A stretch of DNA of 64,000 bases from Fimbriimonas ginsengisoli Gsoil 348 (GTDB lineage: Bacteria > Armatimonadota > Fimbriimonadia > Fimbriimonadales > Fimbriimonadaceae): assembly GCF_000724625.1 (NCBI RefSeq), contig NZ_CP007139.1, forward strand, positions 496,001-560,000, given 5' to 3'. Position 1 is the first letter of the stretch. Each line of letters begins with the position of its first letter. The notes under the pieces are model-generated. The model made no database searches, was not told the origin of the DNA, and worked only from the letters and a program-made list of their open reading frames with translations. The translations under genes were made by a program, and so were the position numbers. Of the stretch, positions 4,190 through 10,262 are shown in pieces.

Positions 4190-5404
4190 TTACTCGACTG
4201 GCGATAGAACCGTTGCATTTGGCTCCCCCATCCGCCCCCCTGTAACGCTCGCCGGTTTCTTGGAAGAAGCCTCTAACGTAAACAAGAAGCGGGAACCGCA
4301 TCCTGGCTCCGACTCGGCCCAGACCCGCCCGCCGTGCCGCTCCACGATCCGCTTCACGTTGGCCAGGCCGATCCCGGTTCCTGGAAACTGCGATTCGGTG
4401 ACCAGCCTCTCAAAGGGCTGGAACAACTTTTCGACGTAACGCATGTCGAAGCCGATACCCTGGTCGCGGACGCAAAACGCCCCGCCTTGCTCCTGGCTCA
4501 CCGATACGAGACCCCCTTCGGGCGAGAACTTGCAGGCGTTGTTCAGGAGGTTCCACAACACAAACCGGACTAAGAATGGATCGCCGAATGCGTTTAGATC
4601 CGGCTGGACCTGAAATGTACATTTGACCGGCCCGTTTAGCGCCATCTCATCGATCACTTCTTGTGCGAGGTCCGACAGGTTGAACGAGACCGGACGCATT
4701 TCCGTGTGAGAAAGCCGGGACAGCTTCAGTAGGTCGTCAATGAGGGCGGCCAACCGGCTGGCCGCATCGCTTTGACGCTGAAGGTAGTACTGAGCCTGCT
4801 CGGGAAGGCCCGCCGAGTAATCCTGCACCAGCATCTGGCTCGTCGCGATGATGGCCCGCAGGGGTGCCCTCAAATCGTGGGAGATCGAGTAGTTGAATCC
4901 CTCCGCCTCGCGGTTCAGCCTTTCGAGCTCCGCGGTCCGCTCGGCAACCCTACCTTCCAGGGTCTCGTACAGATCCCGCACCTCGTATTGACGCCTTCTC
5001 GATCGAAGCGCGACCTGAACGGCGTTGACCAAGGTAATGGAACGCAAGGGGCGCTCCAGCAAGCTCACGTTCCCACTCGGTTCCAAACGTTGAACCAGAT
5101 TCCAAGTTTTCGCGGCGGCAGTTTCGCCTCCCGTCGTGAGGATGACGATCGGGATGTCGGACCAGGCGGGTTGCCTAGCCAGGGTGGTGCGCAACGCCTC
5201 TAAGGCGGTGCCAGAAAGACCCTCTTCCGTGACAATCGCCGCTCCACCACCTTCGGCGATCTTGGCGCAGAATTCCGCTATTGAGCCAACCGCCTCCGCC
5301 TCGATGTCGCGCTGACAGAGGATCGTGGCGATTAGATGACCATCTCGGCCGGTCGGAGCGAGGATTAGCACGCGTTCTTCAATGCGTGCGGTGGTGTCGA
5401 TCAT
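4190..5404 (-). CDS. Histidine kinase with N-terminal pseudo-receiver
   Basis: Sensor kinase of 404 residues. Residues 1-125 have a receiver-like fold pattern, but the phosphoacceptor position reads VTEEGL (Glu60-Glu61) and the usual N-terminal acidic pair is absent, so it should not be phosphorylated. A coiled coil (about 140-170) leads to the H-box SISHDLRAPLRA with His176, then an N-box (LLNNACKFSPEGG), DQGIGFD and GTGIGLAN ATP-binding motifs, as in phytochrome-type kinases. There is no transmembrane segment. The start overlaps the stop of the KaiC-like gene by ATGA (5401-5404), so the two are translationally coupled and probably work together. Partner response regulator not identified. 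Confidence 0.9.
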   Translation of the reverse strand: MIDTTARIEERVLILAPTGRDGHLIATILCQRDIEAEAVGSIAEFCAKIAEGGGAAIVTEEGLSGTALEALRTTLARQPAWSDIPIVILTTGGETAAAKTWNLVQRLEPSGNVSLLERPLRSITLVNAVQVALRSRRRQYEVRDLYETLEGRVAERTAELERLNREAEGFNYSISHDLRAPLRAIIATSQMLVQDYSAGLPEQAQYYLQRQSDAASRLAALIDDLLKLSRLSHTEMRPVSFNLSDLAQEVIDEMALNGPVKCTFQVQPDLNAFGDPFLVRFVLWNLLNNACKFSPEGGLVSVSQEQGGAFCVRDQGIGFDMRYVEKLFQPFERLVTESQFPGTGIGLANVKRIVERHGGRVWAESEPGCGSRFLFTLEASSKKPASVTGGRMGEPNATVLSPVE

Positions 5405-6906
5405 GGCGAAGTTCGGGAAACATCAATCGTGCTTTCTCTTGGAACGCCGGTAAATACGCCGTGCAGCGACTCGAGAGGAGGTCCAATTCCGATTCCGCCA
5501 TTCTCTCCCAACCGTAATTCTCGGATGGATCGATCATGTTGTCCACCCCGCCGTTTGACTACCGAGATAGCCTGCTTTAGGTGGCCTTCGAACTCATAAA
5601 GCCGGAAGAGGATGACGGTATCGGCCAAGTAGCTGACGTCTACGGGAGACGCCATGTTCGCCCCCAACATTCCATGCTGAGCGACAACCAGAATCGTGGA
5701 GATTCCCTGCTGCCCTAAGAACGACAAAAGCTCGTGAAGCTGCAGTATTAAAAACCGCTCTTCGGGCATGGCATTGAGGTAGCCATTCAGACTGTCGATT
5801 GCGACGATTTTCACCTCGCCGGACCGAACGTCTTCTCGCACTTGATGGATAAATTCTCCGGGAGTTAACTCGGCCGGATCGATGTGCTGGACGATTACAT
5901 GTCCTGATCGAACGTATTTCTCGAGGTCTATGCCGAGACCTCGACACCGTTTGTACAAGGTGCGCGGCGTCTCTTCAAACGAATATAACGCCGCCCGGTC
6001 CCCCCGTTCCGCCGCCGCAACTGCGTACCGAATGGCAATCGTTGACTTTCCTGCTCCCGCCGGACCGAGTAGTAAGGTGCTCACTCCCTCGTCCAACCCG
6101 CCTCCGAGCAGTTCGTCCAATGCCGCTACGCCGCTGCTAACCGAGTGGTTTCCTACCGACTGGCGGTGCTCCGCGGCGATCAGGCGAGGGTAAATCCGCA
6201 TTCCACCGGTGAGCATTCCGAGATCGTGGTATCCGCTTCTAAAAGACACGCCACGCAGCTTTTGAACGCGAAACCGACGACGGTCGACACCGAACGACGT
6301 CGGAAGCTGCTCCAAGAGGAGTACGCCGTGAGCGATGCTCTGCAGTTGCAAATCCCCCGGTTCCGACGTCTGGTCGTCTAGGAGAAGAACAGTGCACCGC
6401 TTGCCGGTGAAGTACTGCTTTAATGCCAGGATTTGCCGTCGATACCGTAACGCGTCCCGGGCAAGAAGTCGCATTTCGGAAAGGGAATCAAATACGGCAC
6501 GGCTCGGCTGAACCTGTTCGACGATTCCAATCAAAGCCTTGGTCGTTTCGGTGAGCTCCACCTCGGACGGATGAAAAACCGTATTCTCCGACTCGCCGTC
6601 GAGGAGGTCTTCCATCGCGGAAAGCTCGTACAAATCGATTCCGTCGAGCGTCCAGCCATGAGACTCGGCGACCATGGCCAATTCTTCTCGAGTTTCCGAG
6701 AGGGTGATGTAAAGCACCCTTTCCCCTAGGCGCACCCCTTCCATCAAGAACTGCAGCGCCAGCGTGGTCTTGCCCACGCCGGGGTCTCCCTGCACGAGGT
6801 ACAGCCGGTTCCGGGGCAGCCCGCCACCCAGAACATCATCGAGTCCGTCGACGCCAGTCGACGCGGTTTCAGTCCGTATTCCTGTGTCCATGCTCTCCCA
6901 AGCCAC
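5401..6906 (-). CDS. KaiC-like tandem RecA-fold ATPase
   Basis: Circadian-clock KaiC family protein, 501 residues, with two RecA-type domains. Walker A motifs are GDPGVGKTT (40-48) and GPAGAGKST (281-289). The second domain keeps the paired catalytic glutamates (SFEET, 311-312) whereas the first has LSET, only one Glu. The segment matching the KaiC CII phosphorylation loop reads DVSYLADTVIL (Ser425-Tyr426), so the serine is kept and the threonine is replaced by tyrosine. No kaiA or kaiB is present in the window. Alternative starts exist at Met1 and Met6. It is the first gene of the operon with the kinase at 4190-5404; a role in signal timing is inference. Confidence 0.92.
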   Translation of the reverse strand: MAWESMDTGIRTETASTGVDGLDDVLGGGLPRNRLYLVQGDPGVGKTTLALQFLMEGVRLGERVLYITLSETREELAMVAESHGWTLDGIDLYELSAMEDLLDGESENTVFHPSEVELTETTKALIGIVEQVQPSRAVFDSLSEMRLLARDALRYRRQILALKQYFTGKRCTVLLLDDQTSEPGDLQLQSIAHGVLLLEQLPTSFGVDRRRFRVQKLRGVSFRSGYHDLGMLTGGMRIYPRLIAAEHRQSVGNHSVSSGVAALDELLGGGLDEGVSTLLLGPAGAGKSTIAIRYAVAAAERGDRAALYSFEETPRTLYKRCRGLGIDLEKYVRSGHVIVQHIDPAELTPGEFIHQVREDVRSGEVKIVAIDSLNGYLNAMPEERFLILQLHELLSFLGQQGISTILVVAQHGMLGANMASPVDVSYLADTVILFRLYEFEGHLKQAISVVKRRGGQHDRSIRELRLGENGGIGIGPPLESLHGVFTGVPRESTIDVSRTSP

Positions 6907-7662: not shown

Positions 7663-8253
7663 CTAAGCTCGATCCAGCTTCAGTACCCGACCGATCGTTG
7701 CTACGATCTCTGATTCTGTGACTGGCTTGGTCAGGAAGTCGTCCATGCCGGCGGCAAGACACGCTTCTCGATCGCTTTGAGACGCATTGGCGGTCATGGC
7801 GATAATTGGGATACGAACCCCTTCGGACTCGCCCGCTCGAATCAAACCCGTCGCCTCGAAACCGTCTACGACCGGCATCTGGCAGTCCATGAAAATAAGG
7901 TCGTACCGATCTTCACTGGACATCTCCACCGCTTCTTTTCCATCGCCGGCGATCCGCACTTCCATCCCAAGGCCAGAGATTAGGCGGTGGGCCACGATCT
8001 GGTTCACCTCGTTATCCTCGGCGACGAGAACCTTCAGGTTCCGGTGCGCCAGGAGATCGCGCCGCACCTCACGGCTCTTCGGGGCGAACCCGACTCCGAG
8101 TATTTCCACCAATACCGAATGCAGCTTCTTCCGCTGAATCGGCTTCAGAAGCACACGAACCGCGTGCTCCGCGTCGCTCACCGCATCCCCCAACGGGGTG
8201 ATCACCAAGACCGGGAGTTGTGGAACCGCTAGGCGCGCGAACCTGCTCCACAT
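7663..8253 (-). CDS. Receiver domain fragment of broken hybrid kinase
   Basis: The frame encodes a response-regulator receiver: [18 protein letters not shown] holds the acidic pair, [16 protein letters not shown] the phosphoacceptor Asp, IIAMTANA and FLTKPV the switch Thr and Lys. The start given is an ATG at 8253 that would allow independent translation, but homology begins in this frame at about 8240, just after the kinase frame is lost, so it was probably once the C-terminal part of the upstream kinase. Confidence 0.72.
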
Positions 8254-9298
8254 CCTTCTTCGGGCAAGCCGCCTCAACGACGATAAGGCTGGGAATCCGC
8301 TCGATCTCGTCGAGACGCGAGACCACTTGGACGTCGAAGCCAAAACCGCGCAGGTTTTCCTCCAGCATCGAAAGATCCCGCGGATTTGTGACTGCGAGGA
8401 CGACGTGACGCTCGATGTTCTTGATGAACGGTGTTTCGTCGAGCGCCGGAGCCCCCCTTGCGAGATCGACCTCAAACCAGAACGTGGATCCCTTCCCGAG
8501 CATGCTCGTCAACCCGATGACGCCTCCCATCATCTCGATCAACCTCTTACTGATGGCGAGTCCCAAGCCCGTTCCGCCGAATCGCCGACTTGTCGAGCCG
8601 TCCGCCTGAGTGAAGCTCTCAAAAACGGCGACTTGTCGGTCGAGCGGGATTCCGATGCCCGTATCCGAAACTTCGACCCGGATCTTGACCACCTCCTCCG
8701 ATTCGGAGACCATGGAGACTTTAATGAGGACCTCGCCTTGCTCCGTGAACTTGATAGCGTTCCCCACCAGGTTGACGAGGAGTTGCCGGAGCCGGGTTTG
8801 ATCGCCGACAAGCCGCGGCGGAAACGCGAACGGAGCCGACACGTTCACCTCGACCCCATTGTCGTGCGCGCGCAAGGCAAGGGCCGCCGCCACCTCGTCG
8901 CACATTTGCACGAAGTCGAATTCGGCCGCCTCGAGCGTTAGCTTCCCGGCCTCGATCCTCGAGATGTCGAGCACGTTGCCGATAACGCCGAGCAGCGCGT
9001 CGCCCGAAACCCGGATCAGGTTGGCGTATTCGCGCTGCTCCAGACTGAGGTCGGTTTCGAGAAGGAGCGAGGCGATGCCGAGCACCCCGTTTAGGGGAGT
9101 GCGAATCTCATGACTGATGTTCGCGAGGAATTCGGTCTTTGCCTGGTTCGCGCTCTCCGCCTGCTCTTTTGCCTCTCGAAGCAGCTCCGATTCGCGCTTT
9201 GCGAAGTCGACTTCCTGCCTCAGGAGCGCCGTCCTGATTCCGGCATCGATCTCCTCATTTAACGACTCCTCGACGATAGTCAAGGCAATCCTGAGCAT
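8069..9298 (-). CDS. Histidine kinase fragment of broken hybrid kinase
   Basis: Encodes a coiled linker ([20 protein letters not shown]), an H-box [18 protein letters not shown], an N-box [17 protein letters not shown], and ATP-binding DTGIGIP and GGTGLGLAI, then the start of a degenerate receiver-like segment. After VEQV the frame departs from sense (about 8240) and runs on to a stop at 8069. The ATG at 9298 lies inside the end of the TPR gene (44-base overlap). That linker normally follows TPR repeats within one protein, so the overlap looks like a frameshift, although coupled translation from the ATG is possible. Confidence 0.8.
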
Positions 9299-10262
9299 CG
9301 CGGCCCGCTTCTTCCGGTAATCCCAACTCTTCGTAAACCTGAGCGAGATGTTTGCAAACGGTTCGGACGATGTTCTTAAGCGAAAGCGATTCGGCAACGG
9401 CTTTTGCCCGTTCGAGGCACACTCGCGCCTGCTCCGAATGGCCGAGCTTGAAATACGAGACGCCCAGCTCCTCCATCAGTCCGGCGACGAGGATCTGCCG
9501 GCCATGCCGCTCGGCTAGCTCTTCCACCTGCCGCACGATCGCCAGGACGCTGTCGATCTCGCCCGCGTGACTAAGCGCCACCGCCTTATTGCCGAGGAGG
9601 AACGCCCGCGATAGTTCCTGGCCAGGATCGGTAAGCGATGCCAACCCTTCGTCGACATAAGGAAGCGATTCGGCATAGCGGCCGAGGTCGTTCAGGCTCG
9701 CCGCGATGTTGTTACACATCGAAGATCGTCGGATGTCTGAGAGGTCGTTTCCAAACTCTCCCTTGACAAGCAGCGCATACTCCAGCGCTTTTTCCGGGTT
9801 CCGCACCCGACCGAACGAAGCGCTCTGGCTTAGAAGGACCTCCGCGATCTCGTCTCGGGATCCGTAACGGCGGGCGGTGCTTTCCGCCTCGGCCAAATAG
9901 GAAAACGCCGTCCGCGGATTCCCAATATGCAGATAGCAGCCGGAGAGGGCCAAGAGCGCCTGGGTCTTCTCGGAGAACGCATTCTCCCGATTACTGAGTT
10001 CGAGAGCCAAGTAGCCGGCTTCGATCGCTTCGTTGAGCCTTCCCGCCTCGCGGAGCATAACGCAAAGGTCACTGCTCGCTGCCGCCTCCGCGATCGGATT
10101 TCCGCCCGCTCTCGCCGCCTCGATCGCTTCCCGGGTCCGCTCGATGATCCGATCTGGCGATTCGTTCGCGGACGGCGCCGACCGGGGGAGAAACGGCGAT
10201 AAGGCATCCCGCTCGGTCACCGACGGCGGGTTATCGCTTCCATGCTTCACTGCCTCCACCAT
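9255..10262 (-). CDS. TPR-repeat protein, probably the N-terminal part of a hybrid kinase
   Basis: A 335-residue protein made mainly of tetratricopeptide repeats (for example [20 protein letters not shown] and [20 protein letters not shown]), for protein-protein contact. The last 20 residues (after YEELG) do not resemble TPR, while the overlapping frame gives [13 protein letters not shown] and then the linker typical of TPR-linked kinases. This supports a +1 shift at about 9310-9320. Upstream is the ROK kinase gene on the same strand. Confidence 0.8.

Follow-up and report, generated by a model that had tools for sequence, protein, structure and literature searches.

A KaiC-like ATPase and a predicted pseudo-receiver kinase in Fimbriimonas ginsengisoli, one more member of a widespread two-gene signalling module

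The window studied here (a whole stretch of 64,000 nucleotides from Fimbriimonas ginsengisoli Gsoil 348) encodes a KaiC-like double ATPase and, directly after it, a histidine kinase whose N-terminal domain is predicted to be a pseudo-receiver with a CheY-like fold (Table 1). The pair belongs to a two-gene signalling module that is widespread and has been described before, and the pairing is near-obligate over several phyla: a KaiC of the same clade lies directly upstream of the pseudo-receiver in 53 of 55 loci, usually overlapping it. We consider it fairly probable that the two proteins form an input module for two-component signalling that depends on KaiC and has no KaiA or KaiB of its own, in which the state of KaiC switches the kinase via the pseudo-receiver. 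KaiC proteins are frequent outside cyanobacteria and few of them have been explained, and strict pairing with one pseudo-receiver provides a concrete candidate partner and interface for a whole KaiC clade. As far as the literature covered here shows, the predicted receiver fold, the reciprocity of the pairing, the family-wide state of the pocket and the exchange of the kinase for a SpoIIE phosphatase add to the description given in 2011 (De Luca et al., PMC3164672).

Table 1. Positions of the pair, of its parts and of the other Kai loci of the same genome (positions in the window unless a locus is named).
Feature	Position	Strand	Remarks
Histidine kinase, 404 aa	4190..5404	-	N-terminal pseudo-receiver (predicted), coiled linker, HisKA, HATPase_c
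HATPase_c domain, aa 274-379	4268..4585	-	N, G1 and G2 boxes present
HisKA dimerisation/phosphoacceptor domain, aa 170-232	4709..4897	-	His176 intact (SHDLRAPL)
Pseudo-receiver domain, aa about 9-138	4989..5380	-	Predicted CheY-like fold
ATGA overlap of kinase start codon and KaiC stop codon	5401..5404	-	Four bases
KaiC-like double ATPase (CI + CII)	5401..6906	-	501 aa from GTG; family match and alignment
kaiC (Ser-Ser site), kaiB and PAS histidine kinase	L011:4634-7936; contig 2736.6-2739.9 kb	-	Tight cluster
Third double-domain KaiC (Ser-Phe site), then PAS histidine kinase	L012:4198-7021		Kinase without pseudo-receiver

The ATPase, its kinase and the other Kai genes of the genome

Pfam family PF06745 matches the KaiC-like protein in two stretches (8.7e-69), with Walker A motifs at aa 40 (CI) and aa 281 (CII); the start of the open reading frame is ambiguous, being either GTG at 6906 or ATG at 6891 (496 aa). 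When the protein was aligned to a KaiC of known structure, its CI pair read Ser70-Glu71 (Ser in place of Glu77, Glu78 kept), its CII pair Glu311-Glu312 (Glu318/319, both kept) and its phosphosite pair Ser425-Tyr426 (Ser431 kept, Tyr in place of Thr432). The first-pass annotation, which was made by a model from the sequence alone, had described these points correctly: a KaiC-like ATPase that keeps the serine, carries Tyr at the second phosphosite and has lost one CI catalytic Glu. With Ser-Tyr at 431/432 and Ser-Glu at CI the protein departs from canonical KaiC, and its score with the circadian KaiC model TIGR02655 is 159.3 bits, below the equivalog cut-off of 546.25 bits; we therefore regard it as a KaiC relative and not as a clock protein.

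Domain analysis found no C-terminal receiver in the window kinase. The overlap between its start and the stop of kaiC, which had also been called from the letters, is present as described and points to translational coupling of the two genes; in Ramlibacter, kaiC and the kinase gene are cotranscribed (PMC3164672). Chance or misread open reading frames were ruled out as a source of the pair by strong family matches and by conservation. Elsewhere in the window (7663-10262, minus strand), a protein with TPR, HisKA, HATPase and receiver domains apparently runs through three overlapping frames, a pattern suggestive of frameshifts that are either genuine or assembly indels.

The first reading had described the pair as being without KaiA or KaiB. 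This holds for KaiA, as a profile search with PF07688 found no match in the genome (the control was positive in Synechococcus only). For KaiB it holds at the locus, where no kaiB lies beside the pair, but not for the genome, which has a kaiB (91.7 bits) behind a different kaiC. Three double-domain KaiC genes are present in all, each followed by a kinase, and kaiB belongs to another of them than that of the window. Among ten examined genomes with the pair, kaiB was found in five (this genome and four of the nine others) and in none of the other five; since half of the examined pair-bearing genomes break the rule, we do not treat absence of kaiB from the genome as defining.

The N-terminal domain of the kinase

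No Pfam family matched the N-terminal domain of the window kinase, and a sequence profile search with this domain matched receivers weakly (best 4.8e-4). An AlphaFold2 model built from eight sequences is CheY-like, with five beta-alpha units in receiver order and a mean pLDDT of 84.8. Comparison of the predicted domain with known structures (Foldseek and VIA-align) gave receivers throughout the matches shown: the best was PleD (Z 16.2, rmsd 2.3, 137 aligned), the D55E mutant of HupR gave Z 15.4 (rmsd 2.2, 133 aligned), and neither KaiB nor SasA was among the structural matches listed. In Ramlibacter the corresponding domain, RtaNt, was noted to be weakly similar to both receivers and SasA/KaiB and was suggested to be KaiB/SasA-like (PMC3164672). 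The predicted model of the window domain, which is likened to RtaNt by description only, has receiver topology and does not support that suggestion; for the N-terminal domain of the pair, present data, and the model in particular, favour a receiver over a KaiB/SasA-like fold.

The pocket of the window domain is degenerate, with Ala16-Pro17 where the acidic pair belongs, Glu60 in place of the phospho-Asp and Arg118 in place of the Lys. Having neither acidic pair nor phospho-Asp nor Lys, it falls outside the catalytically competent receivers (PF00072). Alignment places Glu60 and Glu61 at the phospho-Asp position and the residue after it, in agreement with the Glu-Glu reported there by the first-pass annotation, and there is no receiver Asp at the neighbouring aligned positions of the window domain. 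The motifs QPxWSD and ERP are conserved in the pseudo-receiver.

The first eight sequences, in which TEE is invariant, came from a search with the peptide pattern GAAIVTEE, and the site was therefore recounted on 46 loci obtained mostly by profile and tblastn searches. Across these 46 family members the Asp site holds Glu in 34, Asp in 4, His in 3, Ser in 2, Ile in 2 and Gln in 1, and an acidic residue (Glu or Asp) follows it in 45; the Lys is replaced by Arg in 45 and the acidic pair is lost. Judged from these residues, the family rule would be the loss of phosphorylation, of which Glu at the Asp site is merely the commonest case, and Glu as an obligatory phospho-mimic across the family was rejected. 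The view of this Glu as a natural phospho-mimic is thereby weakened, and so is the proposed likeness to the pseudo-receivers of CikA and KaiA, the profile search showing no specific kinship with them.

Pairing across loci and the enzyme behind the pseudo-receiver

The peptide-pattern search yielded seven relatives, spread over Acidobacteriota, Planctomycetota, Alpha- and Deltaproteobacteria; each of them has KaiC directly upstream. A tblastn search gave 227 plasmid records; 17 of the 18 that were opened had intact genes, and in 17 of these 17 a KaiC-type ATPase lay directly upstream (called by annotation or, in unannotated records, by open reading frame match). Further pseudo-receiver loci were added by profile searches of genomes, while a fragment with no intact open reading frame (L048) was left out of the counts and G157 (38.8 bits) was placed below the family. 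The two exceptions to adjacency differ in kind: one genome (G068) keeps both the clade KaiC and the pseudo-receiver gene, on different contigs, and the other (G682) has a pseudo-receiver kinase and no KaiC of this clade.

Profile searches of sampled genomes found the clade KaiC and the pseudo-receiver in the same 10 of 291 genomes of the host phylum and in the same 12 of 190 genomes of the class of Lichenibacterium; nine further genomes with KaiC matches at 32-37% identity had no such pseudo-receiver. Fisher's test on the host-phylum table gives p of about 1e-18, which is too optimistic given the relatedness of the genomes, and the co-occurrence is partly shared inheritance because the genes are usually adjacent. 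Among near relatives the pair is sporadic (3 of 61). Long frames in four loci (L089, L092, L094 and L124), considered as natural KaiC-receiver fusions, are overlapping frames.

The KaiC clade itself is uniform in its key residues. Phosphosite pairs in 45 members are SY (24), TY (15), SF (5) and TF (1), so that the first site is Ser or Thr and the second Tyr or Phe in every one of them; all 41 members with data have Ser or Ala in place of the first CI Glu, and all 43 scored for the CII pair have Asp-Glu or Glu-Glu there. Because the second site is aromatic throughout, no member of the clade is likely to run a canonical two-site Ser/Thr clock, and the range in which to look for its real function is narrower. 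The first-pass annotation had proposed surveys of the gene pair and of the Ser-Tyr position; the former supports a conserved pair, with adjacency at nearly all loci and identical genome sets in the two sampled groups, and the latter shows an aromatic second site behind Ser or Thr. In the KaiC tree the clade has a support of 98/96, with the window protein not firmly placed inside it, and the label of the host phylum changes at least twice, making some transfer between phyla likely.

The enzyme joined to the pseudo-receiver varies. In 45 proteins the domains behind it include HisKA (33), HWE/HisKA_2 (6), HisKA_3 (1) and SpoIIE phosphatase (3), often with PAS domains, and 27 of the 45 also have a normal receiver (PF00072). 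In the three SpoIIE cases (PF07228; L056:610-1839, L057:718-1947 and L059:721-1941), which belong to a single family of the host phylum, the phosphatase is fused to the pseudo-receiver, the kinase is absent and the gene lies behind a KaiC of the same clade. Since the enzyme varies behind a constant pseudo-receiver, we infer that the pseudo-receiver, and not the kinase, is the partner of KaiC; this is the best argument for the proposed interface, and the exchange distinguishes the part that KaiC touches from the activity under its control. On the wider proposal, that the pseudo-receiver may be a general KaiC-docking adaptor through which one KaiC clade would drive any enzyme attached to it, be it a histidine kinase of one of several classes or a SpoIIE-type phosphatase, our judgement is evenly balanced. 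If true, KaiC would be a plug-in regulator of both two-component and partner-switching pathways.

The pair is common on large plasmids, rhizobial and other (L031-L047), and in L042 it adjoins repC. Single-domain response regulators flank it in Sinorhizobium meliloti (L045:4059-4448) and Phyllobacterium (L046:996-1364), where they are likely phosphotransfer targets; the pseudo-receivers of these two loci have His at the phospho-Asp site.

Proposed working, alternatives and related systems

In the working that we propose, the KaiC-like double ATPase would presumably form a ring and would read the state of the cell by turning over ATP and by being phosphorylated on a single serine. The bound nucleotide and the phosphorylation of Ser425 would decide whether KaiC docks on the N-terminal pseudo-receiver of the kinase, which would itself take no phosphate and would act as a docking and switch domain. 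The state of KaiC would then pass via the coiled linker to HisKA and alter kinase or phosphatase activity (control presumably running in this direction), the target being a response regulator probably encoded elsewhere. The most likely role would be to report an energy or stress state rather than to measure time. This explanation is weakened by the one genome that has a pseudo-receiver kinase without such a KaiC.

The pair was proposed in 2011 as a simple timer, an ancestral hourglass, and the first-pass annotation returned to this idea of a two-protein timer. For Ramlibacter, De Luca et al. envisaged a slow rise and decay of KaiC phosphorylation that the kinase reads out once per day, and KaiC does keep at least one phosphorylatable residue, an output kinase is always at hand, and a KaiA-less hourglass in Prochlorococcus is cited as a precedent in PMC3164672. 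Yet Tyr or Phe at the second site in all 45 clade members rules out a sequential Ser/Thr cycle, and the presence of the pair in 3 of 61 near relatives is sporadic. The first CI catalytic Glu, which is part of the clock's slow ATPase, is moreover replaced in all 41 members with data, and we regard an hourglass as unlikely and its revival for the window pair as unsupported. Nor does the kaiB elsewhere in the genome do much for a KaiB-KaiC system with its genes at separate chromosomal sites, in which the window KaiC would work with this separate KaiB: although kaiB occurs in half of the examined pair-bearing genomes, the one here lies between its own kaiC (Ser-Ser) and its own kinase and the other half have none, making such an arrangement quite improbable.

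We find it highly improbable that Glu60 is a constitutively "on" phospho-mimic that locks the kinase in one state, with KaiC acting independently. Replacing Asp by Glu can imitate the phosphorylated state of some receivers (PMC12632262), and the Asp site most often holds Glu (34 of 46), but His, Ser, Ile, Gln and Asp occupy the same site in otherwise intact members, the neighbouring acidic residue and the Arg (45 of 46 each) are better kept than the Glu, and the strict pairing with KaiC would be left unexplained.

CikA and KaiA resemble the window pair in having a pseudo-receiver tied to the Kai system, that of CikA controlling a histidine kinase. CikA consists of a GAF domain, HisKA/HATPase and a C-terminal pseudo-receiver that binds KaiB, whereas the window pseudo-receiver is N-terminal and its kinase has no GAF domain. 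SasA is likened to the window kinase in that KaiC drives it by way of the N-terminal domain, which in SasA is a KaiB-like thioredoxin fold and in the window, according to the predicted model, a receiver fold.

A literature search found no paper naming both Armatimonadetes and KaiC. The closest description is that of De Luca et al. (PMC3164672), who reported the pair in Ramlibacter and others: a KaiC with an SY, TY or SF site is systematically followed by a specific kinase, and there is no kaiB nearby or elsewhere in such genomes. The window pair resembles Rta_04330/Rta_04340 of Ramlibacter tataouinensis ("dark-blue" kaiC group) in its double-domain KaiC, in the kinase directly after it and in the lack of an adjoining kaiB; it likewise has an SY site and a kinase with a family-specific N-terminal domain, the one shared by the 55 loci, and differs in the predicted CheY-like fold of that domain and in that its genome carries a kaiB elsewhere. 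In Methylobacterium extorquens, KaiC2 (kaiC2-kaiR2 cluster) is phosphorylated on Ser426 in vivo (Iguchi et al. 2018) and is a negative regulator of UV resistance, as summarised in PMC8069551. Like the window pair, the AM1 strain combines a kaiB-less kaiC with a regulator and has a single conserved Ser, and the membership of KaiC2 may be supposed by analogy because of this single serine and the missing kaiB; its output runs through LabA, a difference from the window pair.
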